From Zanthoxylum bungeanum (taxonomy: Eukaryota; Streptophyta; Magnoliopsida; Sapindales; Rutaceae), in contig SKCR01007541.1 of the NCBI GenBank assembly GCA_019454045.1, positions 31,321-95,320 on the forward strand: a stretch of DNA of 64,000 bases, written 5' to 3'. The notes under the pieces were generated by a model. It was not told the origin of the DNA and searched no databases. It was given only the letters and a program-made list of their open reading frames with translations. Made by a program: the position numbers and the translations under genes. Every line of letters starts with the position of its first letter. The stretch's first letter is position 1. Below, in pieces: positions 1-47,900 of the stretch.

Positions 1-1300
1 TAATTGAAAGCCCATTGGACTTTAATTGAATAATATTGGATACTAATTGGGCCTTTGAGACCCAATCGGATTGGATTTGGAATCCAAGTCCTTAAAGGCA
101 CTATTGAAAGTGTAATTATTAAATTTGGAATTAAATATGAGTTAGTAATGGATACAATTTAAATTGGATTTAAAATTGTAGTTCGATATAATTCAAGAAT
201 ACGTACTTTGAGTATTTATTCTTAAACGAGTTGGACTCGCGCAAATCAAATCGTTGTTTGATCATTGGATGGTCATTAATCAAAGATTAATTAATTGGAT
301 TAGATTGATTGATAACATGCTTTGTGTGAATACTTGGATGTATGAATGAATAACGTATATCGGATGGATATTAGAAGAGTGAGGGCAATTTTGGAAATTA
401 TTGTAATAAATTTAGAATTTATTAAATTGGACCTACGTGTCCAGTCTATCACCTCTTTTCTCATTGTATTTCTCTTCTCACCTATTCCCCTCAATGTAAA
501 TGAGGTTTCTTTAGAAGTATTATGTAATTGGGTAGAAGTAAGAATAGTGCTACTGGGAGAGATGAAATGGAGAGATTTGTTCTAGGAACAAGTTTGTTGT
601 ATATCCATCTGCATATCATTATTAAATTTTATCGCGCCTTATTATGCTTTTAGAATGCATGCTTAAGGGTGTATGATGAGACCTAAGTGAAGATAATAAA
701 TTGGTTGCCAAATCGCGACAAAAACCCTCATTTCATATTAAGCGTTTTTCCTTCCATTGAGTGATTCTCTCTCAAGATCCAAGATTGGCATTGGTTTGTT
801 GGCCAAAGTCAAGACCTTTGTCCATCGCGGATGTGTTTGAATCATGAAAGCTTTGTTCCATATCGTACGCCTTGGGCAAGTTGTGATTTGTTGGCCAAAG
901 TCAATGTCACTTCTTGTTCATCGGCCTCGATTACGAAGCTTTCCCACTATCAATGGGTCACGTTTGACTGGTTTCATTAAGCTTGTTGAGCCAAAACCAA
1001 GGCTTAGTTGATTCAGAGGAAAAAGTTAGGGAATATATCAGATATATTGGTATATATTGGATATATGTTTCAGATTTGGAGGTCCACCTACTGGATCTAG
1101 GAATTGGATGGAATCCAATTGATTTTAGAGATCTACCTAGTTAAGTTTCATACAATTTGTTGGCCAAAGTCAAGGTTGTGTGTTATTTAACGGGATCCTA
1201 GCCCACTAGGAAACTAGGTTTTCCGAGTACTCCACAGAGGGTTAGAGGCTCGCCGAAAAATAGTGGGAGGAAAGTATTAAATTTGTAATTTTGTTTATAT
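1..1300 (+). other. Untranslated leader of copia A1
   Basis: No coding sequence is supported here. The stretch is alignable by eye with the minus-strand leaders at 46441-47887 and 25150-26653, for example the segments around 20-110 and 600-750. It contains three copies of the short motif TTTGTTGGCCAAAGTCAA (near 796, 887 and 1156). Short ORFs inside it are not conserved between copies, so I do not call them genes. Confidence 0.7.
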
Positions 1301-5120: not shown

Positions 5121-5130
5121 AGTGGGAGAT
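5121..5130 (+). other. Polypurine tract of copia A1
   Basis: AGTGGGAGAT directly precedes the TGTTGG start of the 3' LTR. The same AAGTGGGAG-type tract precedes the LTRs of families B (near 58704) and C (near 44542). It primes plus-strand DNA synthesis in copia elements. Confidence 0.85.
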
Positions 5131-7103
5131 TGTTGGATAATTATGACCCATAGCTTCACTATTTGTACATAACATGGTGTTGTTGTACAAATTAACTATG
5201 TGACATAGGAAATTGCTCTTTTATCATTTGTAATTGGATTACCGGGATATATAAATGATAAAAGTCCATATGATTAGTACCAGATTAATAAGATATGAGA
5301 CAATATTAATCCACTAAGGTTTAATCATTAAATATCCATAGTCGTAGTATTATAGAGACTTGACATCGATAATGCGAAATAGACTAGTATTACACTTGTG
5401 CGCGTTATGGAAGCGTAACGACATAGTTCTTGTATATTTGGATATTGGATACTCATGCAAGTGTAATAGGAGGTTCTGTTTACCGATGGTATGAAAACAG
5501 CTTCGTTCTGGATAGACCCCTCGGAATCCCATTGGTAGTATGACTATGTGTCTATGGGAGTCCGAATCAGGGTATGTGTATTTGGTCTTAACCTGAGACT
5601 TGCATCGCTAATACTTGCGACAATTAGTATACTTTGGTTTTGGTTATCTAGGGCTTTAACAGGTTCTGTGTACGCCTATTCTATGTATACTGAGAATCGT
5701 AGTGTATTGGGTGTGATGTCAAGATGGAAGTATCACTTCAGTCATATGGAGATGATGATCACGCAGGATACAGAACTGGTACTCTTGTATGCTGCAGCTA
5801 TCGGGATAATATGACAAGGTCATGATTATCCGATTATAGAGACTAGTTACCAGAGATCCGATTTATGCATCGTATAGGGCAGACACAATTCCAGCCCCAG
5901 GCCTAGCATGTGACATTCGATACTGGATCGTAATATGCAATACTACGTATGCTACGCCTGAAAAATATTACATATTCCTTTAAAGAATATTTCTGGAGAA
6001 TTGGGTAGGCACGATATTTTGCTAGAAGCCAACCATGTCTTTTAAATCGGGGAGAACGTGGTACCGGGTACGCACGTATTCGGATAGTCCGATTACCATA
6101 TTTACTGCTAACATATCCAGGGATCTCTTGGGTCGCTTCCCGAAGATTCACCGTTGAGATTTGACTCAAAGAGAAAATTAATCTGGGATTAATTATGAGA
6201 GAGAAAATTAATTTGGGATTAATAACGACAATAATTAATCTTGGAATTAATTATCAAAATAGAGAATTAATATGTGATTAATTGCGTCGAGAATTTATCT
6301 ATGATTAAATTTGTCGAGAAGAGAGAACGCGATTAATTTAGAATTAATCGGTAAAGTAAATTTAATAGTTAAATTAGATTTTACTATTTAATTTATTTTA
6401 TTGGGCTAAAATAATATATTGGATATATTAATTGAAATTAGATTTCAACGCGGAATTAAAATTGGATTTTAATTCAAGCGAGTGAATTAATTTAGAATTA
6501 ATTCGTAAGCGAGTTTCGTAATAATTTTACGAGGCATTATTATTTAAATTAAATTGGATTTAATTACGTTGCAACAGAAAATTCGTTTAATCGGATTAAA
6601 CGAACTCGAGCCCGAAGTGTGTTGAGCAAGCCCACTTGAATTTTGAATTTAAAGTGGGGCCCACCAACTTATATCAAATGTCTTCACAAGATTGATGGTG
6701 GTGGTTGAAAGCCTTTAATGAATCTACACAACACACTTTTGACTTTTGCTTTTTGAAAAAGTATATACACTTTTTTGGAAAAAGAAATTGGTAAATGTTT
6801 TTGGAAAACAAAAACACAAAAACTCTTCTCTCTCTTTTCTCTACCATGGCCGACCACTTTCCTTCCTTGGAGGGCAAATTTTTCTTTCAATTTTTGTTCT
6901 TGCTAGCACATAAGGAGTGAATCAAGGTGATAGGGAAACTCACCCAAGGGTTTAGAACTCTACTCAATGCTTGGAACTTCATCTTCAACAAAGAAAAGTT
7001 TTGAATCTCATCCGATCAAAGTAAGTTTTTCCGCAACTTTCGTTTGCTTATTCACACACAAATCACTCTTAGACGATCTTGGCATGTTCTAGGAACACTA
7101 ACA
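5131..7103 (+). repeat. 3' LTR of copia family A (about 1.97 kb)
   Basis: It begins TGTTGGATAATTATGACCC after the polypurine tract and ends ...GGAACACTAACA. Both ends were set by comparison with the minus-strand LTRs at 26668-28617 and 47901-49635, which begin TGTTGGACA and end ACA next to a TGGTATCA-type primer site. Many runs of AATTAATC-like sequence (6180-6560) are shared by all three copies. Short ORFs inside it are not genes. Confidence 0.85.
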
Positions 7104-15527: not shown

Positions 15528-15663
15528 CATAATCCCAATATATAACAAAGATACTCTACTATTGGCACAACCTTTCTCTACTAGTAGGAAATGATGATGA
15601 ACAACAGATGAAAAAGGAATGATCTACTAATCAGCTTATCCTGTAAAATTTAAAGAAAGGGGT
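15528..15663 (+). repeat. Left arm of a 135-bp inverted repeat
   Basis: It reads as the reverse complement of 16881-17016, with only about 7-8 differences by eye, including ACTCTACT, TTGGCACAACCTTTCTCTAC and ACAGATGAAAAA. The arms enclose about 1.2 kb. Confidence 0.9.
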
Positions 15664-16880: not shown

Positions 16881-17014
16881 ACCCCTTTCTTTAAATTTTA
16901 CAGGATAAGCTAATTAGTAGATCATTCATTTTTCATCTGTTGTTCATCATCATTTCCTGCTAGTAGAGAAAGGTTGTGCCAACAGTAGAGTATCTTTGTT
17001 ATGTCTTGGGATTA
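16881..17014 (-). repeat. Right arm of the 135-bp inverted repeat
   Basis: Inverted copy of 15528-15663. It stops where the LTR of the gypsy element begins (17015), which suggests the gypsy element inserted at or inside this arm. Confidence 0.9.
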
Positions 17015-17926
17015 TGACTGGCGTAAACATACACGTATAACGCAAGCGTACGTATCGTTCAAGTAGTATAAAAAGTATCGATCTCACGAGGACTTAAAAC
17101 CTAATCTATTAATTTTATGAGGTCAAATGATTACTAGTATCTAACAGGTTGATTGATTGATTTGAAATGATGATGATTCTAAATTTAAAACAAGTAAATA
17201 AAATTACACAAAAGTAGGTTTAAAAAAATTCAATATTAAAAACTATCTAGGGTTGTGAATCTTTCTAATATCTTTTAAAATATGAAGTGGTTATTTCATG
17301 GTTGTGTAATAAATCGATTTACTAACCTGGAACACTAAATTATGCAAAAGTCTATGTCCATGGTCAGACACAAATACCCAGTTTAACCCAATTGAACCAT
17401 ATGTCTATGTCAACCAAATTATCTGGATTCATCAAGTTTAAGTTCCAATTATGGCTACCCCCGCCCGACAGGTATATGTCTATCCTGTAAGGAAATCTAT
17501 TAAAGGGTTATCTATCCTCAAGGAATATCGTGGGCTATTAAGTCTAAGGCTGAAACCTAAAATTCCTTTGTCAAGTTTATTTTAGATTTACCACATTAAT
17601 CTTATTAGTGATCAGACACAAGAAGCATTAAGCTTAAGATTAATAAGTAAACCTTTAAATTACCCAAACTATAAAATAACCCTTATAAACCAGTGATATT
17701 AGAATTCCATCACAACCCAGATAATTGGCTTAGTTACGACACATATTTACGGGTAGTAAAAACTTAAATAAAATAAAAGACATAAAGTAAAATACTGAAA
17801 AGTAAATTGCTGAAAATTAAATAAAGTAAAATTACAATAAAAGAAAATGATGAGGTAAAAGGATCCGCTTTTATTACTTCTATTTTAGATATCTGTCTTA
17901 ATATAATATATTAACTTTGCATGATA

Positions 17927-18080
17927 ATTACCAACCAGCCATATAGGCGGTATCCAGATTAAGTCAAATTAATAATTAATTACCAACAGACCAATCAGGC
18001 GGTATCCAATTTAGTCAGGTTAAAACCAATTTAAATAATTACCAACCGACCAATATGGCGGTATCCTCGTTGAGTCAGAT
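17927..18080. repeat. Three-copy tandem repeat inside the gypsy LTR
   Basis: Units of about 50-65 bases, each carrying ATTACCAAC...GACCAAT...GGCGGTATCC followed by a GAGTCAGAT or AGTCAGGT tail. Three units are seen. Confidence 0.85.
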
Positions 18081-18429
18081 TTTAACTAGTTTATATATTA
18101 TAATTAAGGGAGATTAATCTAAATATTAGAAATAAAAGTTTTATCTTTTACCCCAGCAAAAGGGAGTTACCTCCTCATTACTGAAAAGTAAAAACTGAAA
18201 ATTAAAGAAAGAAAAGTATTGTGCGTAAAAGTAAATACAGAAAGTAAAAACTGAAAAGTAAAGAAAAGAAAGTGCGAAAGAGGAAATTAATTACTAAAAG
18301 CTGTAAATAAACAAACAAGATACAATCTTCTTAGTATTCTTAAGGAATTCCTTAGAAGAAAGTATGAATTTACAAATGAAATGGCTTGATATTTATAGGC
18401 AAAATTTTACCTCCATCAAATCATCCACC

Positions 18430-18510
18430 AAATCCATTATTAATTGCTCCACTAATTGCTCCATTAATTGCTTCACCAATTCCGTTATTAATTGCTCCAC
18501 TAATTGCTTA
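18430..18510. repeat. Short tandem repeat of ATTAATTGCTCCACTA-like units
   Basis: The words TTAATTGCTCCA and TAATTGCTTCACCA recur five to six times within 80 bases inside the LTR. Confidence 0.85.
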
Positions 18511-19010
18511 TCATTTTTGGTGGTGATTTGATAATTTTTATTATTTATTTTTTGCTTGGAAAATGATTGAAAATGACTTTAATAATTACACACAACACAC
18601 TTCTGGATGGTTCATCAATTTCAGGCATGAAATCTTCTGAATTCGAAATTATTTTGTCATTCAAAGTTGTATATCTTTAAGTCTTCTTTAATCTGAAACT
18701 TGAATTAGCTCAATCCGATATTGGAGTAAAACGTTATGCCCAAAATACGACAGATGTGCAAAACTGAAATTTTCAAAACTGCACTTCGTTAAAACGCCTT
18801 TTCAAGTTTCCAATCTCCAAAATTAATATGTCAAGTCCAATTTTTGCCCTAATTTGACCCACATTTAGTCCTAAATGATTTCATTGTGTCCCAATATTAT
18901 TTTATCTGCAAAATAAACTAAAACACATCAAAACGTTCATCAAACACGAGAAACTAAACAAAATATTAAGTAAAAGGGGCGGTAATTATTGATATATTTT
19001 CCGCTCATCA

Positions 19011-19026
19011 CACCCCCAAACCAAAC
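19011..19026 (-). other. Polypurine tract of the gypsy element
   Basis: GTTTGGTTTGGGGGTG on the minus strand ends exactly at the TGATGAGCGG LTR start. The preceding TTTTGCTCGAGGACTAGCAAA is typical of this element type just before the LTR. Confidence 0.88.
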
Positions 19027-19581: not shown

Positions 19582-19815
19582 ATCTTCCATCTATGTAGCG
19601 AGTGTTGGGTCGGTGACTCCCAAACCAGTTGGCTTTAGGGCACCAGGTGTTAAGACACCCCTACGGACTTAATTACTCAGACTTAGATATATATATTTTG
19701 CAGCATCTTTGATCCATGTAGCGAGCTTTGGGTCAGTGACTCCCAAACCAGTTGGCTTTAGGGCACTAGGTGTTAAAACACCTTACAGACTTAATAACTC
19801 GGATCTCAGATATTT
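19582..19815. repeat. Two-copy direct tandem duplication (about 120-bp unit)
   Basis: Copies at about 19582-19700 and 19703-19815 share CATGTAGCGAG, TCGGTGACTCCCAAACCAGT-like and GGCTTTAGGGCAC segments. They lie in the non-coding stretch between the LOG-like gene and the 3' LTR. Confidence 0.9.
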
Positions 19816-20230
19816 TTTTTTACTCCATCACTTTTTGAGATGCTTCCTCCAATTAAACTAGAGCACTGAATATTACAAACTTTTCAATTTTAGCTCATGT
19901 CCGTATGTTACAATGCATGTTGATAATATCTGCTAACTGAGCATATGAAGATCCATTTTAGTCAGTTTTATGGAGAATTTACAAATTAAATAATTTAAAA
20001 TGAAATAACAAAAACTAACTTGTTTCAAAATGGTTTGAGATACGTCTCAGGAGTGAAAATTCCTTACACAACTATCTCTTACCAATTTCACCTTTTTAGT
20101 CAAAATAAAAACACAAAAACAAAAAATATTTTTGTAATTTTTGAAAATTTTTCAATTTTTTTTTTCGAAAAAATTTGGACTAAAAAAAAACACAACTAAA
20201 CAAACTAAACTAACAAAAAAAAAAAAAATT

Positions 20231-20330: not shown

Positions 20331-20982
20331 TTAAAGGTTAAGATCCAGATTAATCCGACGCCTCTTACCACGATCGTCCTCGGACCAATTTATCATTGAA
20401 AGGATAGGGTCAACTTGTGGTTCATAGGCTAAGAGTTGGTCTATTAGATCTGGAGCAGTTCTGGCAGTATCGAGGAGTTCTTTCATAGGTTTTGACACGA
20501 ACCCATTTCTCTGAGCATCATCAAGAAACACACAAAGAAAATCATAAAATCCTTCAACGTTGTACAGTCCAAGCGATTTCTGGTGTATGTTCAGGTTCGC
20601 CCAAGATAACACTATAAAAATTTCCTCCAATGTGCCCAAGCCACCTGACAAAGCAATAAAAGCATCAGCACGGTTAATCATTTCTACCAATCATTCAGAC
20701 ATACCTGGCACGATTAGTTCCTCTCCGTTTGATGGTCCAATAAGATTTGCCTCCGCCAAGGGTTTTGGGATAATTCCCAAAACGTGACTGCCTCATTCAT
20801 GTACGGCCTTTGAATGATCCCATAAGTCCAAGATTGCCACCGCCATATACTAAGTGCATATTCCTTATAGCTAAGACTCGACCCAATTCCAGTGCTGCTT
20901 CTATGTATTGTAGCTTAACACCAACACTAGTACCGCAAAACACACAGATGTTTTCAACTCGTCTTCTTGAAGTGGCTTCCAT
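20331..20982 (-). pseudogene. LOG-like cytokinin riboside 5'-monophosphate phosphoribohydrolase, intronless, broken, inside gypsy element
   Basis: LOG enzymes release active cytokinin bases from their nucleotide forms in the cytosol. From the ATG at 20982 the product reads ENICVFCGTSVG and HLVYGGGNLGLMG, typical LOG N-terminal motifs. After a one-base frameshift near 20815 it continues HVLGIIPKPLAE, then INRADAFIALSGGLGTLEE and LGLYNVEGFYDFL to a stop at 20331. The whole family fold, about 217 codons, is covered without introns, whereas plant LOG genes are normally split by several. The signature PGGxGTxxE is altered to SGGLGTLEE. Two TGA codons (near 20805 and 20693) and the frameshift disable it. 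It lies in the same direction as pol, between integrase and the polypurine tract, and ends just before a purine-rich motif. I infer a processed host transcript captured by the retroelement. An independent retrocopy inserted there later is the alternative. Confidence 0.88.
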
Positions 20983-21388
20983 GTTTTACTCTGGATGTCT
21001 TTAAAAGTGCAATAATGAGTTGAATTTATAACACCTGAAAAGGGTTAGTAAAATAATAGCACTAGTACATGCCAAATGACAATTATTAGTTAATAGTAAA
21101 ATAAATCGTGATAGTCAAAAAGGTATGGATCCTATCGGATAAAATAAAAGAAAACAACAAAATAAATTATAATTATTAGGAAAAGACAAAGAGATATAAT
21201 ATTTACAAGAAAAGTAGCGGCTTGATTGACGTCTATGCGTCAGGGACAAGCTTCTCATCCAATTTTCTTATAAATTGGCAAACAGGGTCTTTTTGAGTCA
21301 GATTCCCGAGACTTAACTATTGTCTTTCCTTTTGAAATTGTGCATATAATTTGCGAATGGCTATATGAACATATCCACTTTGATGCAT

Positions 21389-21721
21389 CTAAAGAGTCAA
21401 AGATATATTATCTACAGACTCTTTACTCAAGCCATCCCTAATGAATTTAATTTTATCTTCGCGATTATCAGACACCATTCCTAAAGAAAGACAACGAGTA
21501 TTGCAATTCCAGCGTGCACATTTGTAACAAACACCCATTTTCTTAGCTCTACATTTCTTTGCATAGGTGCTTCTTCCAAATCCAGGCAAATAAGAATTAC
21601 AAGAATCAGAATACTCACCTACTAATCGGACCCGTGCTCCAATTACCCAACGAATGTCATTAGGAACACCATGGATCGTTAGTAGTTTCATCTGTTCCAA
21701 GCGAGCTTTGTAGACTTTCAT
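21389..21721 (-). CDS. Cysteine-rich ORF of unknown function in the gypsy element
   Basis: An open frame of 110 codons with a start at 21721, in the same direction as pol and the LOG-like gene, sitting between them. The centre has closely spaced cysteines in CRAKKMGVCYKCARWNCNTRC, a C-x6-C-x2-C-x4-C-x3-C spacing that could bind metal. I do not recognise the family. It begins about 150 bases after the last traces of pol. It may be a second captured host fragment, the upstream part of a captured transcript, or an element-specific accessory ORF. Expression is unknown. I keep it as a CDS because no disabling change is visible. Confidence 0.4.
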   Translation of the reverse strand: MKVYKARLEQMKLLTIHGVPNDIRWVIGARVRLVGEYSDSCNSYLPGFGRSTYAKKCRAKKMGVCYKCARWNCNTRCLSLGMVSDNREDKIKFIRDGLSKESVDNISLTL

Positions 21722-21879
21722 CAGAGAGTGTTGAGGGAGAGAAGGAAATTGCTTGTGAAGATTTATGAAAGCTTATTCCATCTTGAAATGACTTAATCTG
21801 CAAAAACTAACACACCAAATTAAATCACACCAAATCACAATATATACACAAATTGCATGGGTTGCCTCCCTGCGAGCGC

Positions 21880-24800
21880 TAAGTTTAACGTCGACAGCTA
21901 GACGTGACTTCTCGAATGTTAGGCTGGATCTGAAAGTGTGACACTTCTTTTTGTCGCTCAAACGATTCTCCCCAGTAGTGCTAGACACGCTGACTATTAA
22001 CCTTGAATTTTTCGTTGGTGTTGGGATCCAGTAACTTAACAGCTCCATATGGTAAAACCTGAGTGATCACAAATGGACCTGACCAACTTGATTTCAACTT
22101 TCCAGGGAAAAGTTTCACCGTGAATTATACAACAACACTTGCTGCTTTGGTTCCAACTGTATGTGCACTATTTTTTGATCATGTCATTTCTTGATCTTTT
22201 CTTTGAACAATCTGGCTTTCTCATAAGCTTGTAAGCGAAATTCCTCCAATTCGTTGAGTTGGTGAAGTCGTTTCTCTCATGCAGCTTGTGAATCAAGATT
22301 CAACTTCTTTAATGCCCAGTACGCCTTGTGTTCAAGCTCAACGGGCAGATGGCACGCTTTTCCAACACCAATTGATATGGGGACATACCAATGGGTGTCT
22401 TGTAAGCTGTTCAGTAGACCCATAATGCATCATCTAGTTTTGTAGACCAATTTTTCCTTGTTGATCCAACTGTTCTCTCTAAGATTCATTTGAACTCTCT
22501 ATTTGAAACCTCAACTTGTCCATTTGACTGTGGATGGTAAGCAGTGGCAACTTTGTGAGTAACTTCGTATTTGGTTAGGAGTGCATGGAAGTATCTGTTG
22601 CAGAAATATGTGCCACCATCGCTGATGATTGCACGAGGTGTTCCGAACCGAGTGAAAATATTCTTTTTCAGGAATTTGATCACCATTTTTGAATCATTGG
22701 ATGGCAGTGCAATTACTTCGACCCATTTGGAGACGTAGTCTACAGCAACCAAGATGTACAGGTTTCCGAATGATGGAACAAAGGGTCCCATGAAATCTAT
22801 TCCCCACACATAGAATATCTCCACTTCTAGAATGTTTTACATGGTCCTTCATTTCTCTTTGAAATATTCCTCATTCTCTGGCACCTGTCACATTGAAGAG
22901 TAAAAAGATAAGTATCTTTAAAAAGAGTGGGCCATAACAAACCTGATTGTAGGACTTTGGCTGCAATTTTGTTTCCGCTGAAGTGTCCGGCATATGGTGA
23001 TGAATGACAGTGCTGCAAAACACTGTTGATCTCCTCTTGTGGAACACACCGTCTCAATAATTGATCAGCACACCGTTTGAACAGGTACGGCTCATCCCAG
23101 ACATAGTGCTTGACTTCTTTGAAGAATTTCTTCCGTTGCTGAGTTTTCCATTCCAACAGCCATTTTTCTGACACAATGTAGTTGACATAGTCAGCATACC
23201 AAGGGGCATCTTGCTGTTTCATGGCAAACAGCTGTTCATCTAGAAAATTTTCTTTGAATAAAAGATCTTTGTCAGCTGTTTCTCCATTCTCGAGCCTTGA
23301 TAGATGATCTGCCACTTGGTTTTCTGTCCATTTCATGTCTTTGATCTCCACGTCAAATTCTTACATAAGAAGTATCCAACGAATCAATCTGGGTTTAGCA
23401 TCTTTCTTCGTGATCAGATAATTGATTGCTGAATAATCTGTGTAGACCACCACTTTGGGACCCAGCAGATAGGAGCGGAATTTGTCAAAAGCGTACACAA
23501 TTGCGAGCAACTCCTTTTCAGTGGTTGTGTAGTTAAGTTAAGCTTCATTCAAAGTTCTGCTGGAGTAGTAAATGGTGTGAAAAATCTTTGCTTTGCGTTG
23601 TCCCAAAACTGCACCTACAGTAAAATCACTAGCATCACACATTACTTCAAATGGAAGGGTCCAGTCTGGTGCTACAATGATGGGGGCAGAAATCAGCTTT
23701 TGTTTTAAGATCTCAAAAGCTTCCTGACATTCTTTGGTGAAGTTGAAAGGCTCATCCTTCTCCAGAAGATTGCAAAGAGGTTTAGCAATCTTGGAAAAGT
23801 CTTTGATAAATCTCCTGTAAAAACCTCCATGTTCGAGAAATCTCTGAATCCATTTGACAGATGTCAGCGGAGGTAGTGTTTCAATTATTTCAATCTTTGC
23901 TTTGTCTACCTCGATTCCTTTTTGTGAGATCAGGTGTCCAAGAACAATACCCTCATATACCATGAAATGGCATTTCTCCCAATTGAGCACCAGGTTTGTA
24001 TCGTCGCACTTTTGTAACACATGTTCCAAATTTTGCAAGCAGTAGTCAAAAGAATCTCCAAACACAAAAAAGTCATCCATAAAAACCTCCATACTCTGCT
24101 CCAGCATGTCTGAGAAGATGGCCATCATGCAACACTGAAATATAGTAGGGGCATTACATAATCCAAATGGCATTCTACGGAAAGCAAAAGTACCATAGGG
24201 ACATGTAAAGGTAGTTTTCTCCTGGTCTTCCGGTGCGATGGCAATCTGATTGTACCCTCAATATCCTTCCAGAAAACAATAGATCTCATGTCCTTCCAGT
24301 CTTTCTAACATCTGGTCAATGAATGGTAGCGGAAAATGGTCCTTTCGTGTTGCTTTGTTCAGCTTTCGGTAGTCCATGCATACTCTCCATCGATTCACCG
24401 TTCTAGTTGGGATTAGCTCATTCTTTTCATTGGTAACCACAATGATTACTTCTTTCTTCGGCACACACTGCATAGGACTCACCTAAGTACTATCTGAGAT
24501 GGGGTAAATGATGCCAGCATCCAACCATTTGATGATTTCTTTCTTTACGACCTCCTTCATGATTGGATTGAGTCTCCGTTGATGTTCCACTGTGGGTTTG
24601 TACTAATCATTCATCAGAATCTTGTGCATGCAAAATGATGGACTAATGCCTCGAATGTCTACTATAGTCCAGCCAATAGCTCTTTTGTGCTCTCGTAATA
24701 CTCTCAGTAACTTTTTCTTCCTGCTCCAATGTTAGTGAAAAATAAATAATAACAGGTAATTCAGAAGAGTTTCCAAGAAATGCATACCTGAGATGGCTCG

Positions 24801-25150
24801 GAATTTTCTTCAGCTCTAGCTGTGGTGGTTCTTCAATCGAAGGCTTGATTCGATCTTTCTTTGGCAGTTCCAGGCTTTCCACTTGTGGTGTTGATTTGAA
24901 TTAGAATGGTTTGTCAAGGTAGTTGATACATTCCAGGATTTTAGCATCTAGCTCACTCTCAGTCATGTTGGTAATGCAAGCTTCAAGTGTATCCATGGGA
25001 TTTAGCTCAGTATTCTGAATGACACTATCAACAACATCAACTCTGAAGCATTCTTCTTCCTTTTCATCGCTCGAGAATTTCATGGCTTTGAAAACATTGA
25101 AAGTAACTTCTTGGTCTTGAAGTTTCATGGTTAGTTCTCCTTTTTGTACA
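21880..25150 (-). pseudogene. gypsy pol, copy B (protease-RT linker to integrase C-terminus), broken
   Basis: Read downward from 25128: the linker between protease and RT (KFSSDEKEEECFRVDVVDSV); RT fragments at 24482-24258 and 24173-23538 with the catalytic FMDDF at about 24075; RNase H to about 23340; the integrase zinc finger (HCHSSPYAGHF ... LQCDRCQR, near 23020-22860); and the integrase core at 22824-22486 with [17 protein letters not shown] and [15 protein letters not shown], so the D, D and E regions are all visible. After 22486 the C-terminal part is read only with frameshifts to about 21880. At least five stops or frameshifts interrupt it. It lacks gag and protease: its upstream end abuts copia leader at 25150. 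It parallels copy A from 31690 down to about 28620. Confidence 0.9.
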
Positions 25151-26651
25151 ACAAATCACGACTTGGACAAGACACCGATATGGAACAAAACTCTCATGAT
25201 TCAAACACATCTGCAATTGACAAAGGTCTTGACTTTGGCCAACAAACCAATGCCAACTTTGGATCTTGAGTAAGAATCACTCAACGGAATGAAATAACGC
25301 TTAATATTTTTTGAGGGTTTTTCGCGTAAATTGGCAACCAATTTATTATCTTTGTTAAGGTCTCATCATTCACCCTTAAGCATGCATTTCTAAAAGCATA
25401 ATAAGGCGCGGAAAGTAAATTAATAACGATATGCGGATGGATATTTCAACAGATTGTTCCTAGAACAAATCGCTCCATTTCCTCTCCCCGGCTAGCACTA
25501 TTCTACTTCTACCCAATTACATAATACAATAATATAAACCTCATTGACATTGAGGGGAATTAGGTGAGAAGAGAATACAAAGAGATAATAAGAGATAAGG
25601 CTGGACACGCAGGTCCAATTTATAAATTCCAAATTTACAATAATTTCCAAAATTACCCTTTCCCTTCTAATATCCATCCGATATACGCTATTCATTCAAC
25701 ACATCCATATATTCATTCATAGCATGCATTACAACCAATCTAATCCAATTAATTAGTCTTTAATTATGTGACCATCCAATGTTCAAACAACGATTTGATT
25801 TTGCGCGAGTCCAACTCGTTTGAGAATAAGCATTCAAAGTACGAATTCTTGAATTATATCGAACTACTCGTTAAATCTAATTTAAGTCGTATTCAATACT
25901 AATTCTATTATTTAATTCCAAATTAAATATTTACACTTTTTAATACGCTTTAACGACTTAGATTCCAAATCTAATCTTATCAGGTCTCAAAGCCCAACTA
26001 ACATCCAATGTTCGTTTAATTAAAGTCTGATGGGCTTTCAATTAATTTAATAAGGCATGGGCTTTGGTCAATGTGGGTCAAACCCAATTACCAAGCCCAA
26101 GTAAGGAATCACCATCATTTGCCATAAAACCAATATCAAACCCATAAGGCCCAATTAAACTTTAAAGCCCATTAACCAAATTTTAAGAATTCCAAATTTT
26201 ATAACTTAGTAATAAAAGTGTAATACATCAATTAATTAACTAAATCAATATTTCCAAAGTACAATTTAACCAATTAATTATGTATCTAATTGTCCAACAA
26301 TTTTTGAATCAAAAATCAAGTCCAATACATGCCATCAAGTTCTCGGCCAAGGTAAGGAATTTAGTCCAATTTCATTTTTCAATCCAATCGAATTACAAAT
26401 CGACTTTTCCATTCGTTTCAACTCATCCAATGATCATCAAAATAAAAAATACCAAGAACCTAGGGTTACATACACATTCGGCCAAGCCTTATGGTGGGGC
26501 ACAATTTTGATCCAATCATAATTTGTTGAAATTGATACAATCATACCTCATTTCATCAACATACAAGCATACTCAACCATTCAATTTAATAAAATCATGC
26601 TCACATGGATTTTCCCCAAATTTTACCCTAATACATTTCATGCTCATTTTA

Positions 26652-26666
26652 GGCTCAATGATACCA
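26652..26666 (-). other. Primer-binding site of copia A2
   Basis: TGGTATCATTGAGCC on the minus strand lies directly after the LTR. It resembles the TGGTATCAGAGC site that pairs with initiator methionine tRNA, with changes after the eighth base. Confidence 0.8.
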
Positions 26667-26667
26667 T

Positions 26668-28617
26668 TGTTGGTTTCTATGATTAGTCCCAAGAACATAA
26701 TGAAAAAAGAAATGTGAATGAATAACGAAGAAGAGTAGCGGAAACAAACTTACATCGATCGGTTTAAGGATGCGTTGATCAACAAAAATTTGCTCCAAGA
26801 TGCTCAAGAATTCGGCCAAGAACAAGAAGAAGCTCAAAGCTTTGATTTGATTTTTCCAAGCCCTTGGATAGGTTTCCCTATCACCTCTTGATGATCCTTG
26901 AAGAGTGCTAGTCCTTAGTGAATTTTTGCAACAAAGATTCACACATTTCCTTCACACTTTTGGCTAAGAAAATGAAGAAAATGGAGAGCAAAAACTGGTT
27001 CACAGTTTCGGCTTTTGGGAGAGAGAATAGAAGATTTTGTTTTTCAATTCTATTTTGGCTTCCAAAATCGTATATGAGAAATTGGAAAAACAATTACCAA
27101 ATTTTTGGTAAAATGGTTTACAAAAAGTCAAAGCCATTTTGGCTCCAATTTTGCATTAATTGCCCACACCAAACTCCATCATAAATAGTGACAAAATGTC
27201 ACTCACAAAAAGACTTTGACATCTATCACAATGAATGACAAGTGATGTGACTCGCGATGTGACTTGTGGGCCCCACTCGAATTCAAAATGCGAATGGGCC
27301 CGCAAACACTTCCGGGCTCGGTTTCGCTAATTCTGAATTAACGAACTTCCGTCGTGATGTAATTAAATAATCATGCCTAGCGAAATTACTATTCACGTCG
27401 CTAACGAATTAATTCTAAATTAACTCGGTTGCCCGAATTAAAATCCAATTTTAATTCTGCGTCGAAATCCAATTTCGTTTAATATATCGAATATATTAAT
27501 TTGTCGATTGATTCCAAATTAATCTTTCTCTCTCTTCAAATAGTACTTTATCCAAGATACAGTGTCTCCGCAATTAATCCCAGATTAATTATGCTCGGAT
27601 CATACTTCATCGGTGAATCTTCAGGAAGCGACCCAAGAGATCCCTGGATATGTTGGTAGTAAATACGGTCGTCGGACTATCCGAACACGTACGTACCTCG
27701 TACTACGTTTTTACCGATTTACGAGACAATGTTGGCTTCTAGCAAAGCGACATGCCTACCCAATTCTCCAGAAATATTCTTACTAGAATATACGATCTTT
27801 ATCAGGTGTAGTATACCGTAGTATTGCGTATTGCGATCCAGTATCAGATGTCACATGCAAGGCTTGGGGCTGGAATAGTGTCTGCCCCATACGAAGCACA
27901 TATCAGATATCAAGCAACTAGTCTCTTTGAATCGGATAATCATGACCTTGTAATATTATCCCGATGGTTGCAACACAATAGAGAACCAGTTCTGAATCCC
28001 TGTGTGATCATCATCTCCATATGTCTGAAGTGATACTTTCGTCTTGACATCACATCCAATACACTACGAGGCGTACACAGAACCTGTTAAAGCCCTGGAC
28101 GACCAAAACCAAAATTTTCCGATTGTCGCAAGTACTAGCGATGCAAGTATCAGGTTAAGACCAAATACACCTACCCTGAAGCGGACTCCCATAGACACAT
28201 ATATATACTACCAATGGGATTCTGCGGGGTCAATCCAGAGCGAACCTGTTTTCCGTACCATCGGTAAAACACAACCTCCTATCGCACTTGCATAAGTATT
28301 CTATACTTAAATATATGAGAACTATGTCGTTATGCCCTCACAACGCGCACAAGTGCAATACTAGTCTATTCCGCATTATCGATGTCCAATCTCGATAATA
28401 CTACGACTAGGGATATTTAATGATTAAACCTTTATGGATCGATACTGTCTCATATCATCTCAATCCGGAACTAATCATATGGACTTTTACCATTTATATA
28501 TCAAAGTAAATAAATTACAAAACGGTAAAAGGTAATTTAATTACAACATAGTCAATTTTGTACAAAAACACAATGTCTTTTACAAACAGTGACGCTATGG
28601 GTCATAACTGTCCAACA
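26668..28617 (-). repeat. LTR of copia A2 (about 1.95 kb)
   Basis: It starts TGTTGGACAGTTATGACCC at 28617 and ends ...ATAGAAACCAACA at 26668, next to the primer site. It is collinear with 5131-7103 in reverse orientation. Confidence 0.88.
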
Positions 28618-31600
28618 ATGTGAGATTCAATAGACGTCTCGAGATGACTACTTTGATTTTAGTTTTCCAGGGAAAAGTTTTAACCGTGAATCGTATAACA
28701 ACACCTGCTGCCCTGGCTCCAGTTGTCTGCGTACTATTTTTTTTCATGCCATTTCTTTGTCTTTTCTTTGTACATTTTCGCATTCTCATAAGCATGTAGG
28801 CGAAATTCCTCAAATTCGTTGAGTTGGTGGTGTCTTTTCTCTCCTGCAGCTTGTAGATCAAGATTTAACTTCTTCAGTACCCAGTACGCCTTGTGCTCAA
28901 ACTCCACTTTCAAATGGCACACTTTCCAAACACCATTTGATATGGGGACATACCAATAGGTGTTTTGTAAGCTGTCCGATAGGCCCATAATGCGTCATCC
29001 AGTTTTTCAGAACAGTCCTTTCTTGTTGATCCAATGGTTCTCTCAAAGATTCTTTTGATCTCCCTGTTTGAAACTTAAACCTATCCATTTGACTGTTGAT
29101 GTAAGCAGTGACAAATTTATGAGTAACTCTGTATTTCTATAGGAGTGCATCGAAATATCCATTGCAGAAATGCTATCACTGATAATCGCCTGAGGTGTTC
29201 CGAAGCGAGTGAAAATATTCTTTTAAAGGAATTTAATCACCACTTTTGAATCATTTGATGGTAGTGCAATTGTTTCAATCCATTTGGAGCCGTAGTCTAC
29301 TGTAACTAGTATGTACAAGTTTCCGAGTGATGGAACAAAGGGTCCCATAAAATCAATCCCCCATACATCAAATATCTCCAATTCTAGAATATTTTGTAGA
29401 GGTCCTTCATTTCTCCTGGAAATATTTCCCGTTCTCTGGCACCTGTCACATTGAAGAGAAAATAAATAAGCATCTTTAAAAATAGTGGGCCAGAACAAAC
29501 CTAATTGTAAGACTTTGGCTGCAGTTTTATTTCTGTTGAAGTGCCCACCATATGATGATGAATGACAATGTTGCAAGACACTATTGACCTTCTCATGTGG
29601 AACACATCGTCTCAGTAATTGATCAGCACAATGTTTGAAGAGGTACGGCTCATCCCAGACATAATGCTTGACTTCTTTGAAGAACTTCTTTCGTTGCTGA
29701 TGAGTCTATTCCAACGGCCATTTTCCCGATACTATGTAATTGACATAGTCAGCATACCAAGGGATATCATGCTGTTTCATGGCAAACAGATATTCATCTG
29801 GAAAAGTTTCTTTGATTTTCACTTATTTGCCAGCTGTTTCTCCATTTTCGAGCCTCGATAAGTGATCTGCCACTTTGTTTTCTTTCCATTTCCTATCTCG
29901 AATCTCCATGTCAAATTCTTGCAGTAGAAATATCCAACAAATCAATCTGGGTTTGGCATCTTTCTTCACGATCAGGTATTTGATTGTTGAATAATCTGTG
30001 TAGACCACCACTTTGAGACCCAATAGATAAGAGTGAAATTTATCAAAAGTGAACACAACTACAAGCAACTCATTTTAAATAGTTGTGTAGTTGAGTTGAG
30101 CTTCATTCAGAGTTTTGCTTGAGTAGTAAATGGTATGGAAAATTTTTACTTTGGGTTGTCCCAAAACTGCACCTACAGAAAAATCACTAGCATAGCACAT
30201 CACCTCAAATGGAAGGTTCCAGTCTGGTGCTACAATGATGGGAGCAGAGACGAGCTTATGTTTTAAGATCTGAAAAGCTTTGTGGCATTCTTTGGTGAAG
30301 TTGAAAGGCACATAAATCTCAAGAGGATTGCACAGAGGTTTAGCAATCTTTGAGAAGTCTTTGATAAATCTCCTGTAAAAGCCAGCATGTTCGAGAAAAC
30401 TCTGAATCCTTTTGACAAATATTGGTGGAGGTAGTTTTTCAATTGTATCGATCTTTGTTTTTTCTACCTCGATTCCCTTTTGTGAGATTCGATGTCAAAG
30501 GACGATGCCTTCCTGCACCATGAAGTGGCATTTCTCCCAGTTAAGTACCAGGTTAGTATCTTCACATCTTTGTAACACTTGTTCCAGGTTTTGCAGGCAG
30601 TGGTCGAAAGAGTCTCCAAACACAGAGAAATCATCCATAAAAACCTCCATACTTTTTTCCAGCGTGTTTGAGAATATGGCCATCATGCAACGTTGAAATG
30701 TAACAAGAGCATTGCATAATCCAAATGGTATCCTGCGGAAAGCAAAAGTACCATACGGACATATAAAAATATTTTTCTCCTGATCTTCTAGGGCGATGGA
30801 AATCTGATTATGCCCCGAATATCCATTCAGAAAGTAATAGAATTCATGTCCCGCCAGTCTGTCTAGCATCTGGTCAATGAATGGTAACTGGAAATGATAT
30901 TTCCTTGTTACTTTTTTCGGCTTCTTGTTGTCCATGCATACTCTCTATCTAGTTACTGTTCTTGTTGGAATCAGCTCATTATTTTCATTTGTGACTACAG
31001 TTATTCCTCATTTCTTTGGCACACATTGTATAGGACTCACCCAAGTGCTGTCAGAGATGGGTAGATAATTTGATGATTTATTTCTTCACAACCTCTTTCA
31101 TGATTGGATTTAATCTCCGTTGATGCCCCACTATAGGTTTGTACTTGTTATTCATCAGAATCTTGTGTATACAAAATGATGGACTAATGCCTCGAATGTC
31201 AGTTATAGTCCATCCAATGTCTTTCTTGTGTTCTCGTAACACTCCCAGTAGCTTTTCTTCCTGCTCCAATGTTAGCGACGAAGAAATAATCACAATTAAT
31301 TCAGAAGAGTTTCATAAGAATGCATACCTGAGATGGCTCAGAAGTAGCTTTAGCTCCAGCTGCGGTGGTTCATCAATCGAAGGCTTTATTCGCTCTTTCT
31401 TCGGTAGTTCCAGAATTTCCACTCGTGGTGTTGATTTGAAGCGAAATGGTCTGTCAAGATAGTTGATGCATTCCGAAATTTCAGCATCTAGCTCACTGTC
31501 AGTCATGTTGGTGATGCAAGCTTCAAGTTTATCCGTGGGAAGTGGTATTGCATCAATATCCTGGATTACACTATCTATAACATCAATTCTGAAACATTCT

Positions 31601-31700
31601 TCCTCATTTTTATCACTCAGGAATTTCATGGCTTTGAAAACATTGAAGGTAAATTATTGGACCTGCACTTTCATGGTTAGTTCTCCTTTTTGTACATCAA
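28618..31700 (-). pseudogene. gypsy pol, copy A (protease-RT linker to integrase), broken
   Basis: Open pieces on the minus strand: 31629-31312 (linker); 31293-31078 (RT start, EHKKDIGWTITDIRGISPS); 30935-30495 (RT core with FMDDFSVFGDSFDHCLQNLE); 30311-30075 and 30068-29823 (RNase H, with VMCYASDFSVGAVLG and [16 protein letters not shown]); and 29576-29223 (integrase zinc finger CDRCQR and core [15 protein letters not shown]). The integrase tail, read with frameshifts, runs to 28618, where copia A2 starts. Stops and frameshifts separate all pieces. It is clearly the same family as copy B but not identical, so the two are separate insertions or an old duplication. Confidence 0.9.
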
Positions 31701-31824
31701 TAACAGTTCGACCTGTAGCCAAAAATGGTCTCTCAAGGATGATAGGTACATCTTTATCTTCTTTCATGTCAAGGATAATGAAATCTGCTGGAAGAATGAG
31801 TTTTCGACTTTGACCAGCCTATCG

Positions 31825-33640
31825 TCAACTACACCTCTCGGAAGCGAGTGTTCTATCACCAAGTTGTAAAGAGACTGAGGTGGGCATTGCTTCTCCAATC
31901 TGCAGTATCCTGTAAATCGAAAAAGACATTAAGTTAACACTAGCACCTAAATCACTTAAAGTTTTACCGATATAATATTCTCCAATGGTGCATGAGATAG
32001 TGAAACTCCCAAGATCTTTCAACTTTGGGGGAAGTTTCCTCTGAATAATGGCGCTGCATTCTTCTATCAATGCTACTGTCTCGTAATCTCCCAATCTCCG
32101 CTTTTGTGAAAGAATGTTTTTCATGAATTTGACATAGTTGGGCATCTCTTCCAACACTTCTGCAAATGGAATGTTGATATGTAGCTTTTTGAATACCTCC
32201 AGCAATCGAGCAAACTGTTTGTCCAATTTTTTTTTTCTGGAGACGCTGTAGAAAAGGTGGAGGTGGAGTGATTCTTTCTTTTTCCTTTGATTCTCTTCCC
32301 TCCATCTGTGTAACTGCATCTTTTGGAACTTCTTCAATGGATGTCTTGATTCCAATATCTTTGTCGATTTCAGTACCTCTTTTCAAAGTTATGGCTTGAC
32401 ATTGCTCATTCCCTCTGTTCCTTGGTTTTAGTTTTGTGTTGCTAGGAAGGTTACTTGGCGGTCTGTAACTTTGAGCATTAGCCAGTTGTCCCATTTGATT
32501 CTCCAGTGCATTAATAGAAGTTGAATGGCTTTGATTTAATGCTATTTGATTTTGAACCATAGCTGCTAAAGCATCGTATTTTGCTTCTTACTTTTTGAAC
32601 ATCTCTGCAAACCATTCTTTCAATTCTGGTTCTTTCTTGTACTCCTAGCCTTTGTTTTGTTGTTGGAATCCATGTGGTGGATTATTCTTTTGCCCTGAAT
32701 TGTTGTTCCATGCAAAATTGGGATGATTCCTCCACCATGGGTTGTAGGTGTTGGAATATGGAATGTTCACATGTCTGTTGAAATTGTTGACATAATTCAT
32801 CGTCTCATTTTGTTGGTTTGTCTCCGATTCTGGTGCTCCTCCATATGGTGAACTTGTAGATCTAGCATTAACCTTCATGTTAAGAGTTTCTAGATTCTTG
32901 CAAATTAAATCTAGCTTGGCATTCACTGCTGTGTTGGCTCCAACTTCATAAATTCTTGCGATTCTTTGGATCATGCTCCTTTCTATTGGCCACAATGAAT
33001 TGTTGTTGGCCATTTCTTCAATTAAATCCCAGGCCTGATCTTCTCATTTTTCTATTAAAGCTCCTCCAGCAGAGACATCAATTGGGTTCTTATTATTCCA
33101 GAAATTCCATTATATAAGGTTTGAACTTGTAGCCACTTTGCAATCTCATGGTGAGGACATTTTCTAAACAAATCTTTGTACCTTTCCCAAGCTTCGCAGA
33201 GAGATTCTGAGTCATGTTGCACAAATGATGTAATGTCATTCTTCGGCTTTGCAGTTCTGGATGGTTGAAAGTACTTTACAAGTAATTTGGTGGCTAGAGT
33301 GTTCCAAGTTGTGATGGAACCTGCTGGTAGTGATTGTAGCCAAGCTTTAGCTCTGTCTTTCCAGGAATATGGAAAAACACGCAATCTCATTGCTTCTTTA
33401 GCTGCTCGGTTGTAGTTGAAAGTGCCACAAACTTCCAGGAAGTTGCTAATATGGGCATTAGGATCTTCTGTTGCATTCCCCCTAAACTAAATTGACTGCT
33501 GTAACATCTGAATGCACGTTTTGATGTCACACGCATTTGCTGGTAAGAGATGAAGTACAATACGGGAAATGAAGCTGTCAACCAACAGAATGGTTCTATC
33601 TCGAATGGAAATTGGTGGTGCAACTTCCAAAGGTTCAGGT
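31825..33640 (-). pseudogene. gypsy gag and protease, broken
   Basis: Gag starts in a damaged frame near 33620 and is best seen at 33390-33055: RLRVFPYSWKDRAKAWLQSL, SITTWNTLATKLLVKYFQPS and FRKCPHHEIAKW. It continues at 33013-32645 with the NPWWRNHPNFAWNNN signature of Athila/Tat Gag. The protease part (32355-31825) holds TLSDLGASVNLMSFSIYR, whose DLGAS is the active-site form of this lineage. Gag packages the element's RNA and the protease cuts the polyprotein. Stops after 33055 and 32645 and a frameshift near 32300 disable it. Confidence 0.9.
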
Positions 33641-33860: not shown

Positions 33861-33878
33861 TTCCCGGCAACGGCGCCA
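33861..33878 (-). other. Primer-binding site of the Athila/Tat-type gypsy element
   Basis: TGGCGCCGTTGCCGGGAA on the minus strand, six bases after the LTR end at 33885. This is the usual primer site of Athila-type elements; the tRNA is commonly given as tRNA-Asp, from family knowledge. Confidence 0.88.
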
Positions 33879-33884
33879 AAAACT

Positions 33885-40326: not shown

Positions 40327-41000
40327 TTGGGAATGAATCCCAGAGGTCTAAGCACCTCATCATCACAGGAAAAACTCCCCAGAAGGATCAAAAAGTCATA
40401 CAGGTTGACCAAAACACCATCACTCAACCCAGCACAGTTGGGAATAAAGCCCAGAGATGGTTCAGGAATAAAGCCCACAGATCGAAGCACTTCACCATCA
40501 ACTCAGCACAGTTCGGGAATAAAACCCAGAGATGGTTCGAGAATAAAGCCCAGAGGTCGAAGTACCTCGCCATCAACTCAGCACAGTTCGGGAATAAAGC
40601 CCAGGGGTCGAAGCACCTCACCATCAAATCAGCATAGTTTGGGAATAAAGCCCAGGGATGGTTCTGGAATAAAGCTCAGTGGTTGAAGCACCTCGCCATC
40701 AAATCAGCACAGTTCGGGAATAAAGCCTATGGGGTCGAAGCACCTCACCATCAACTCAGCACAGTTCGGGAATAAAACCCAGGGATGGTTCAGGAATAAA
40801 GCCTGTGGGTCAAAGCACATCGTCATCAACTCAGCACAGTTTGGGAATAAAGCCCAAGGATGGTTCGGGAATAAAGCCCAAAGGTCGAAGCACCTCGCGA
40901 CCTCACCATCAACTCAACTCAGTTCGGGAACAAAGCCCAGAGATCGAAGCATCTCACACTCGATGGTTCGGGAACAAAGACAAAGGGTCGAAGCACCTCG
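40327..41000 (+). repeat. Minisatellite array in the 3' part of the Ogre-like element
   Basis: Repeats of GTTCGGGAATAAAGCCCAG, AGGTCGAAGCACCTC and CCATCAACTCAGCACA in varying combinations give higher-order units of roughly 50-80 bases, about ten copies. Units can be read through in more than one frame, giving repetitive ORFs (40327-40686, 40729-41013) that I treat as by-products. Confidence 0.93.
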
Positions 41001-46440: not shown

Positions 46441-47886
46441 TACGTTTAATATTAAAGTGAGGGTTTTTTGTAAATTGGCAACCAAATTATTATCTTTGAT
46501 TAGGTCTCATCATACACCTTAAACATGCATTCTAAAAGCAAAATAAGGCGTGATTAAATTTAATAATGATATACGGATAGATATATAATACAATTTGTTC
46601 CTAGAATAAATCACTCTCTCTTTCCTCTCTCTCGCTAGCAGTTTACATTCTTCTACCCAATTTCATAATATATAAAGAAACCCCATTTACATTAAGGGGA
46701 ATTGGTGAGAAGATAAATACAAAGAGAATATGAGGTGAAAGGCTGGACACGCATATTTAGAACAATTTCCAAAATTGCCCACACCCAACTAATATCCATC
46801 TGATACACATTATTTATACAAATACATCCAAGTATTGACTCAAAGCATGTTGTTCAATCAATCTAATCCAATTAATTAATCTTCAATTAATGACCATCCA
46901 ATATTCATACAATGATTTGATTTGCGCGAGTTCAACCCGTTTAAGAATAAATACTCAAAGTATATATTCTTGAATTATATCGAACTATAATTTTAAATCC
47001 AATTTAAATTGTATCCAATACTAATTCGTGTTTAATATCAAATTAAATAATTGCACTTATTTTAGTGTCTTTTAGACTTGGATTCCAAATCCAATCTAAA
47101 TGGGTCTCAAATGCTCAATTAGCATCCAATGTCAATTCAATTAAAGTCCAATGGGCTTTCAATTAATTATTTAGGCATGGACTTTGGCCATTATGGATCA
47201 AACCCAAAAATGCCAAGGCCCAATTAGGAATCACCCTATGCCAAAAATCAATTTAGGCCCAATTAAATTATTAAAGGCCCAAAAGTCATATTTGGACTTT
47301 ATGGAAATGGTTTTAGGCCCAATTGGATCCAACCCAATTGTCCAAAACTATATTTGGCCTAACCAAGCCCATTAGCCCAAATACAACAATTAAATTAGCA
47401 TAATATTCAAATATCATATTAATCCATTTAAAGTGTAATTAACACAATAAATCAATTAATCTAATATTTTCAAAATATAATTAATCTAATTAATCATGCT
47501 TAATTTTCCAATTCATGTCCATATAAATTGAAGCAAAATCAATTCTACAACAACATGCTTCAACTCACGGCAAAGGAAAGGAAATAATCATGCAATTTGA
47601 TTTCAATCCAATTAAATCAAAATTTAACATACATTTCATGCCAATTAACAAATCCAATTGTCAAATTTTCAAAAAATCACCATGAGCTTTCTAGGGTCAA
47701 GTTTCGGCCAAGGTAAGATAATTAGGGAAATTTTGATCCAATCAATTTTTTACAAATCCAATTTGCATAACTCTAAGTTATCATTATCCAACCATAACCA
47801 AACAATCAATTTTGAAAAATATATGCTCCAAGCAAATCCCAAAATTAAAGTCCATAAACCCTAGAAATCTAATCAAGTTTAGATAG

Positions 47887-47899
47887 GCTCTTGATACCA
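47887..47899 (-). other. Primer-binding site of copia A3
   Basis: TGGTATCAAGAGC on the minus strand, one base after the LTR end. It is close to the initiator methionine tRNA site. Confidence 0.88.
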
Positions 47900-47900
47900 T

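Follow-up and report, generated by a model that had tools for sequence, protein, structure and literature searches.

A LOG-like gene and a virus-type cysteine-rich ORF as a probable 3' module of an abundant Athila-like gypsy family in Zanthoxylum bungeanum

Introduction

Additional ORFs are found in most OTA elements of a survey of plant LTR retrotransposons, which set a lower limit of 250 codons for the ORFs it counted and, in the part of the paper available, asked whether such ORFs function at all (PMC6317226). With this threshold both genes considered here, of 182 and 217 codons, would be passed over. The closest described case is the YgdH domain, a LOG domain, reported in Gypsy consensuses of Citrus sinensis and C. 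clementina and, when no filter was applied, also in Populus trichocarpa (PMC9289625, which cites an earlier report by Steinbauerova et al., 2011). The element described here likewise has a LOG-type domain in a plant Gypsy LTR retrotransposon, so that as regards LOG it adds one more member to something already reported. As far as the accessible text of PMC9289625 goes, YgdH figures there as a survey domain hit, without partner ORF, tail, selection test, phylogeny or mechanism, and its main text mentions neither carlaviruses nor nucleic acid binding. The present family differs in its host, in its many copies and in its EAR-like tail, and what it adds to that report is this tail together with the pairing with a virus-type ORF, a pol-less carrier and selection tests. 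YgdH and retrotransposons were found together only in PMC9289625 within the literature searched, which lacks most subscription papers; the accessible portion of a review of additional ORFs (PMC7264820) names neither YgdH, LONELY GUY, cytokinin nor carlavirus. Similarly, titles and abstract beginnings of the papers listed, with most subscription papers outside their scope, yielded no paper on a carlavirus- or NABP-type ORF in a retrotransposon. A different betaflexivirus-like insertion, near retrotransposon-like sequence, appears in the available part of PMC3136472.

Four further systems invite comparison. Gypsy elements of orchids encode an AlkB-like RNA demethylase, also a host-type enzyme as extra ORF, for which the accessible text argues a role in countering host control (PMC9289625); those elements, however, measure 25 kb, come from Phalaenopsis and carry an RNA enzyme, whereas here a hormone enzyme is combined with a virus-type gene, with relatives in several plant families. 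The cysteine-rich proteins of carla-, allexi- and mandariviruses (PF05515, PF01623) share with the element ORF a C4 zinc finger after a basic KKRRAK stretch, but the element ORF resides in an LTR retrotransposon, has 182 aa and ends in a conserved C-terminus of its own, ...KDPVCQFIRKLDGKPILDP. Type-I plant LOG (LONELY GUY) has the same fold, PGGxGTxxE motif and catalytic Arg and Glu as the element LOG, which in contrast is intronless, has mostly lost the Lys following the Arg, bears a basic and LxLxL tail and forms a separate clade. Finally, in the accessible part of its description the EAR effector HaRxL21 is a protein of a plant parasite that shares the C-terminal LxLxL with the protein of this genetic parasite of plants; unlike HaRxL21, the element LOG is no secreted pathogen effector, and its binding to TOPLESS is a prediction by analogy (PMC7446885).

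Results

The window, i.e., the whole stretch of 64,000 nucleotides of Zanthoxylum bungeanum DNA that was analysed, contains the following features (with the grounds for each in brackets).

17015..19010, minus strand: 3' LTR of the LOG-bearing element, 1996 bp, TGATGAGCGG...ACGCCAGTCA (end of similarity among copies, start motif, purine tract)
19011..19022, minus strand: polypurine tract GGTTTGGGGGTG adjoining the LTR (sequence and copy comparison)
20331..20982, minus strand: LOG-like gene, decayed copy (translation, Pfam and structure-database matches)
20334..20369, minus strand: C-terminal tail GKRRRINLDLNL, a basic patch followed by an LxLxL EAR-like motif (translation and conservation)
20691..20693, minus strand: TGA at conserved Arg codon 98 (same stop in 5 of 31 indel-free copies)
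21236..21781, minus strand: carlavirus-type cysteine-rich nucleic-acid-binding ORF, 182 codons, three in-frame stops (Pfam; 85% to relative P0121 over residues 1-182)
22080..25154, minus strand: pol fragment of the same element with integrase, RNase H and reverse transcriptase (Pfam H2C2, RVT_1, RT_RNaseH)
28645..33486, minus strand: second, related gypsy element with pol and gag, 3' part missing (83% to the first over pol)
33863..33880, minus strand: primer binding site of the second element, TTTGGCGCCGTTGCCGGG (sequence and copy comparison)

The original prediction, made from the letters of the window, placed an intronless LOG-like sequence in a gypsy element, in sense orientation and flanked by integrase and the 3' LTR, and the minus-strand reading, with pol on one side and the LTR on the other, bears this out: because gypsy pol is on the minus strand too, LOG is in sense in an element that runs from right to left. 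The reading extends from ATG at 20982-20980 to TAA at 20333-20331. Its translation recovers the predicted motifs HLVYGGGNLGLMG, HVLGIIPKP and SGGLGTLEE, and also the predicted damage, namely a single frameshift, near codons 55-58, and two in-frame TGA codons, at codon 64 (20793-20795) and at the conserved Arg position, codon 98 (20691-20693). When the gene was searched piecewise, a 153-aa part matched Pfam PF03641 (Lysine_decarbox) at 9.8e-28 and the Arabidopsis structure 2a33 at 4.8e-31, and the 61-aa N-terminal piece gave no Pfam match. These two scores, with the fold match given below, rule out a chance resemblance to LOG. Since PGG is present in 73 of 74 full-length relatives, the SGG of the window copy is decay private to it.

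The 3' LTR runs TGATGAGCGG...GTCA and is directly preceded by the purine tract GGTTTGGGGGTG; LTR ends of the same kind, there with a target site duplication, delimit a complete element on contig C19904. The primer binding site of the second element, at 33863..33880, we take to be of the tRNA-Asp type. Between Pfam H2C2, from 23045, and an RNase H end at about 23350 there are some 300 bp, a figure from Pfam coordinates alone in which 23350 is an extrapolation, the RNase H match itself stopping with its ORF at 23541. Tat elements are marked by a second, archaeal-type RNase H in the available part of PMC6317226. For the LOG-bearing element, Athila is tentatively favoured over Tat.

Several repeats surround these genes. 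A 118-bp direct duplication (19582-19821) separates LOG from the purine tract, and as it recurs in 8 of 8 other copies examined it is an old feature of the element. A different repeat occupies 25143-28619, between the two gypsy pol fragments, and its ends match window positions 1-899 and 5129-6194 (inverted) as well as 46442-49604. Inverted repeat arms of 136 nt, 96% complementary, lie at 15528-15663 and 16881-17016; the second arm ends at 17016, adjacent to the LTR boundary (17015), and probably another element inserted there. Short, overlapping direct repeats of about 100-370 bp are present at 40412-40957.

The genome searched for further LOG copies comprises 3.96 Gb. DNA search with the window LOG gave 7016 candidates and protein search with plant LOG protein P0120 gave 59,210, both of them first-look figures rather than copy counts. 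All 40 scored DNA matches, window included, are full or nearly full length, the 39 non-window copies at 94-95%. All 150 scored protein matches are contiguous over about residues 4-201 at 51-54%, and 145 of them have no stop, so that copies with an open reading frame do exist elsewhere in the genome. Besides recurring in the 39 further scored copies, LOG was located at the same place, a point raised in the original prediction, in 8 of 8 copies examined: beyond LOG their match to the window continues, interrupted by gaps, across the spacer and into the LTR. Similarity to the window ends at 17011-17021 in seven of these eight and at 17088 in the eighth, and four of the eight have the exact LTR start string.

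The C19904 copy was read at both ends. Its LTRs, of 2130 and 2186 bp, enclose LOG, a primer binding site directly follows the first LTR, and a 5-bp target duplication, GGGAT, stands outside both. Because these LTRs and GGGAT enclose LOG, the gene belongs to the mobile element and is no later insertion. A plain retrogene inserted into a gypsy element with a duplication of its own, which had been named as the outcome that would speak against the prediction, is ruled out by this duplication outside the LTRs and by the match that continues into the LTR in all eight copies examined. The element family carries LOG as a regular component. The two C19904 LTRs differ by K2P 0.036, which at a substitution rate of 1.3e-8 gives an insertion age of about 1.4 My; the LOG of this copy is not fully open, its longest open stretch having 185 codons.

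Flanks were surveyed in 60 copies, i.e., 39 chosen by DNA, 20 chosen by protein match and the window. Upstream of LOG there is integrase sequence in 39, a gag-type ORF instead in 16, and neither in 5. The gag-type ORF is so named for its zinc knuckle CDICNGNHPRDHC and because it weakly resembles the gag tail of the window (24.5%, E 5e-6); no Pfam gag domain was detected in it. In C19904 it is open within about 135 bp of the 5' LTR and LOG comes next, so this form contains neither pol nor the cysteine-rich gene. The second architecture is a pol-less derivative that retains LOG.

The second extra ORF of the window, at 21236-21781, was absent from the original prediction. Its open part (21389-21772) matches Viral_NABP PF05515 at 1.9e-4 and Carla_C4 PF01623 at 5e-4, both just below the Pfam cut-offs (21.9 of 23 bits and 20.4 of 20.9 bits). 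Among eight better-preserved relatives tested, five are at or over the PF05515 cut-off and six reach at least one of the two models, P0191 and P0231 staying below both. Residues C85, C88, C93, C97, R77 and R78 are each kept at 90% or more across 37 rows, which outlines a C4 zinc finger after a basic stretch. The ORF precedes LOG on the same strand in 42 of the 60 surveyed copies, with a median gap of 255 nt, and is absent upstream in 18. Its predicted structure is poor (pTM 0.29). The one match on viral contigs, L092, is presumably a phage recombination-type protein, and this match was taken as chance.

Protein searches gave the best 120 of 3708 matches for LOG, the best 120 of 188 for the cysteine-rich protein and, by profile, the best 120 of 524. 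Among the matches listed, element-type LOG occurs in, among others, Populus, Xanthoceras, Acer, Diplodiscus, Reevesia, Orobanche and Citrus, and the cysteine-rich protein in Populus, Xanthoceras, Acer, Rhamnella and Orobanche. The element context was seen directly in the present genome only, and relatives from other plants are called element-type by the tree, by the published report and by two gene models that fuse the cysteine-rich protein with LOG, P0214 from Orobanche minor and P0231 from Citrus. In P0201, also from O. minor, the cysteine-rich part is joined to another stretch, which by its motif we take to be a retroviral-type protease.

Element relative P0002 scores 173.7 bits with TIGR00730 (cut-off 96.35). 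For the NCBIfam equivalog CtkRMPhLog, with a cut-off of 300, it reaches 114.4 bits, and the plant LOG P0120 is also under this cut-off with 131.5. The predicted structure of P0002 (pTM 0.84) is of low confidence only at residues 1-5 and in the tail, 203-217, and its best fold match is 2a33, with TM 0.96 by target length and 0.77 by query length. Among 74 full-length element-side relatives, PGGxGTxxE is kept and so are Glu120 (72) and Arg97 (65), which we take to be the catalytic residues of LOG, the window copy having a stop at the Arg codon; the Lys beside the catalytic Arg is retained in only 10.

Exactly C-terminal LxLxL is found in 52 of the 74 proteins and in none of 19 host LOGs, and elsewhere in the 74 bodies it occurs at 3 of 14,761 positions. 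Proteins with this ending have K or R at -10 in 48 of 52 cases and at -11 in 48 of 52. Among the other 22 of the 74 are close variants of the motif (LDFNL, DIDLNR) and truncated rows; they also include a Sapindaceae-type group, whose proteins end directly after the basic patch. To judge from this distribution, the tail seems to have been gained and is EAR-like. LxLxL is one of two EAR forms (PMC6479872), and the C-terminal LxLxL of HaRxL21 recruits TOPLESS, the motif by itself being insufficient for TOPLESS binding (PMC7446885, both statements from the accessible portions of these papers).

One might ask whether the LOG fold is a mere scaffold, with selection acting on the nuclear LxLxL tail or on a dimer surface, so that the protein would act non-enzymatically as a co-repressor recruiter or packaging factor. 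The terminal LxLxL in 52 of 74 proteins although the residues between its leucines vary, the loss of the neighbouring Lys in 64 of 74, and the tail 203-217, which is disordered in the P0002 model as short binding motifs are, would all suit such a use, yet Glu120, Arg97 and PGGxGTxxE are kept and the Sapindaceae relatives, which lack LxLxL, still keep the active site including the Lys. We regard a purely non-enzymatic role as unlikely.

Twenty-four open, indel-free LOG copies give a pN/pS of 0.227 (0.150-0.310 in a codon bootstrap of 100), with out-of-frame controls at 0.609 and 1.879, although protein similarity, a criterion biased towards low pN/pS, was used to choose 19 of these copies. Copy pairs taken inside one architecture or across the two have ratios of 0.23, 0.19 and 0.21, the 0.19 being that of the pol-less derivative paired with itself (9 copies). 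The five open DNA-chosen copies alone give 0.71, at small divergence. For the cysteine-rich ORF, 9 copies give 0.505 (0.376-0.647), against 0.776 and 0.839 out of frame, and this ORF is less constrained than LOG.

A fairer set consists of the 31 indel-free copies among the 40 chosen by DNA only, of which 7 are open and 24 have stops. Singletons in this set, mostly post-insertion changes, have nonsynonymous and synonymous counts of 136:42, and variants shared by two or more copies have 61:41 (Fisher p 0.0043). By codon position, singletons number 69/53/56 (p 0.3) and shared variants 35/22/45 (p 0.02). The protein-chosen set goes in the same direction, with 47:52 against 21:59 (p 0.0051). Our conclusions rest on the DNA-chosen 31, because a first test on all 40 copies had low controls (shared ratio 1.86 in the true frame and 1.67 in the +1 frame) and a badly aligned upstream ORF. 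These data point to purifying selection on the element LOG in the active lineage, modest in the DNA-chosen set, with inserted copies decaying.

The broken state of most DNA-chosen copies, 9 of 40 having LOG indels and 24 of the remaining 31 stops, is also what would be expected if a LOG captured by chance were a functionless passenger hitch-hiking with a successful element. This reading could equally draw on the pN/pS of 0.71 and on stops common to several copies: within the 31, TGA is shared at codon 64 by nine copies and at codon 98 by five. Some lineages may therefore spread without LOG, unless methylation-type hits recur, and the shared TGA codons are either inherited or the product of repeated methylation-type decay. 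A passenger, however, would hardly show the depletion of amino-acid changes in shared variants relative to singletons or a ratio of 0.227 in open copies, nor active-site and tail residues kept in relatives of several plant families, and we consider it quite improbable that LOG is one. A role at the RNA level, with host LOG genes altered by abundant transcripts of the element LOG or by its small RNAs and with the open frame as a mere side effect, would be in keeping with the very many LOG copies. It leaves the codon-position bias unexplained, and since the resemblance of element copies to a host-type LOG protein is only 51-54%, small-RNA cross-talk with host LOG genes is unlikely; the RNA route as a whole is hardly credible.

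With a 51-aa LOG piece, 150 scored matches in the genome fall into 127 contiguous ones (query 1-51, 55-61% identity) and 23 exon-sized ones (query 11/16-50, 71-94% identity, with TAG listed inside two). Four exon-sized matches were inspected at their borders: all have an AG no more than 9 nt from the 5' border, and three have a GT at the 3' border. The host thus possesses ordinary, intron-interrupted LOG genes. As the element LOG lacks those introns, it fits capture through mRNA. The proposed capture of a reverse-transcribed host mRNA therefore stands in so far as the element LOG is contiguous and host exons stop at intron-like borders, but a recent capture is not required.

A quickly built tree with 94 rows unites 19 host-type LOGs in one clade. 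In a rooted tree, 24 element-type LOG rows form one clade (100/95), in which the Sapindaceae-type group branches first, and 16 plant LOG rows are its sister (100/99). Plant and element LOGs together are separated at 99/95 from a bacterial outgroup of 25 rows (25 of 80 loci were used). The plant rows include proteins named LOG1, LOG7 and LOGL10 as well as At2g37210 and At5g11950, presumably LOG3 and LOG8. A bacterial origin was weighed because element LOGs share PGGLGTLEE-F with some bacterial LOGs, and the tree does not support it. The tree groups the element LOGs with plant LOGs but places them outside all 16 plant LOGs sampled, so that either the capture is old or the branch fast. A single capture from the plant LOG line would be the simplest reading of the tree, and the depth of the element branch could be exaggerated by fast evolution.

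Discussion

We think it probable that a very abundant Athila-like gypsy family, represented in the window by a dead copy, has a two-gene accessory module in its 3' region, in which a virus-type cysteine-rich nucleic-acid-binding protein is followed by a LOG of plant origin that is under selection, and that the element makes use of this LOG. How it might do so can be proposed in steps of falling confidence, from benefit through cytokinin and TOPLESS to silencing. The element LOG protein would be made and would benefit the element. Where the element is expressed, LOG may still free active cytokinin from its nucleotide, and cytokinin could push cells to division or to a meristem state, by which new copies would reach the germ line. 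The LOG tail may recruit TOPLESS-type co-repressors in the nucleus. Lastly, the neighbouring cysteine-rich protein might suppress silencing as its viral relatives do. In the accessible part of PMC12172455, silencing suppression is reported for viral members of the NABP/CRP family, one of which is also a transcription factor that induces hyperplasia.

Taken to its full extent, this would mean that the lineage carries an effector set, a LOG raising cytokinin and with its nuclear LxLxL tail pulling TOPLESS, beside a virus-type silencing suppressor, that has steered host division and defences in a virus-like manner over much of eudicot evolution. We put forward this wider proposal tentatively and regard it as doubtful.

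The family offers a clear test case for the function of extra ORFs, as it combines an enzyme whose chemistry is known, a gained tail whose type of binding partner is known and a virus-type companion, and the many open copies (145 of 150 scored) and the derivative that keeps LOG without pol strengthen its value for this purpose. It would link hormone control, silencing and transposon success. For annotation it implies a warning, since some plant gene models named 'LOG' or 'hypothetical', for example the fused P0214 and P0231, are probably pieces of such elements. With 566 and 315 sequences from ena data, P0243 and P0252, two clusters of the cysteine-rich protein, suggest that certain other plants contain very many copies or transcripts of it.
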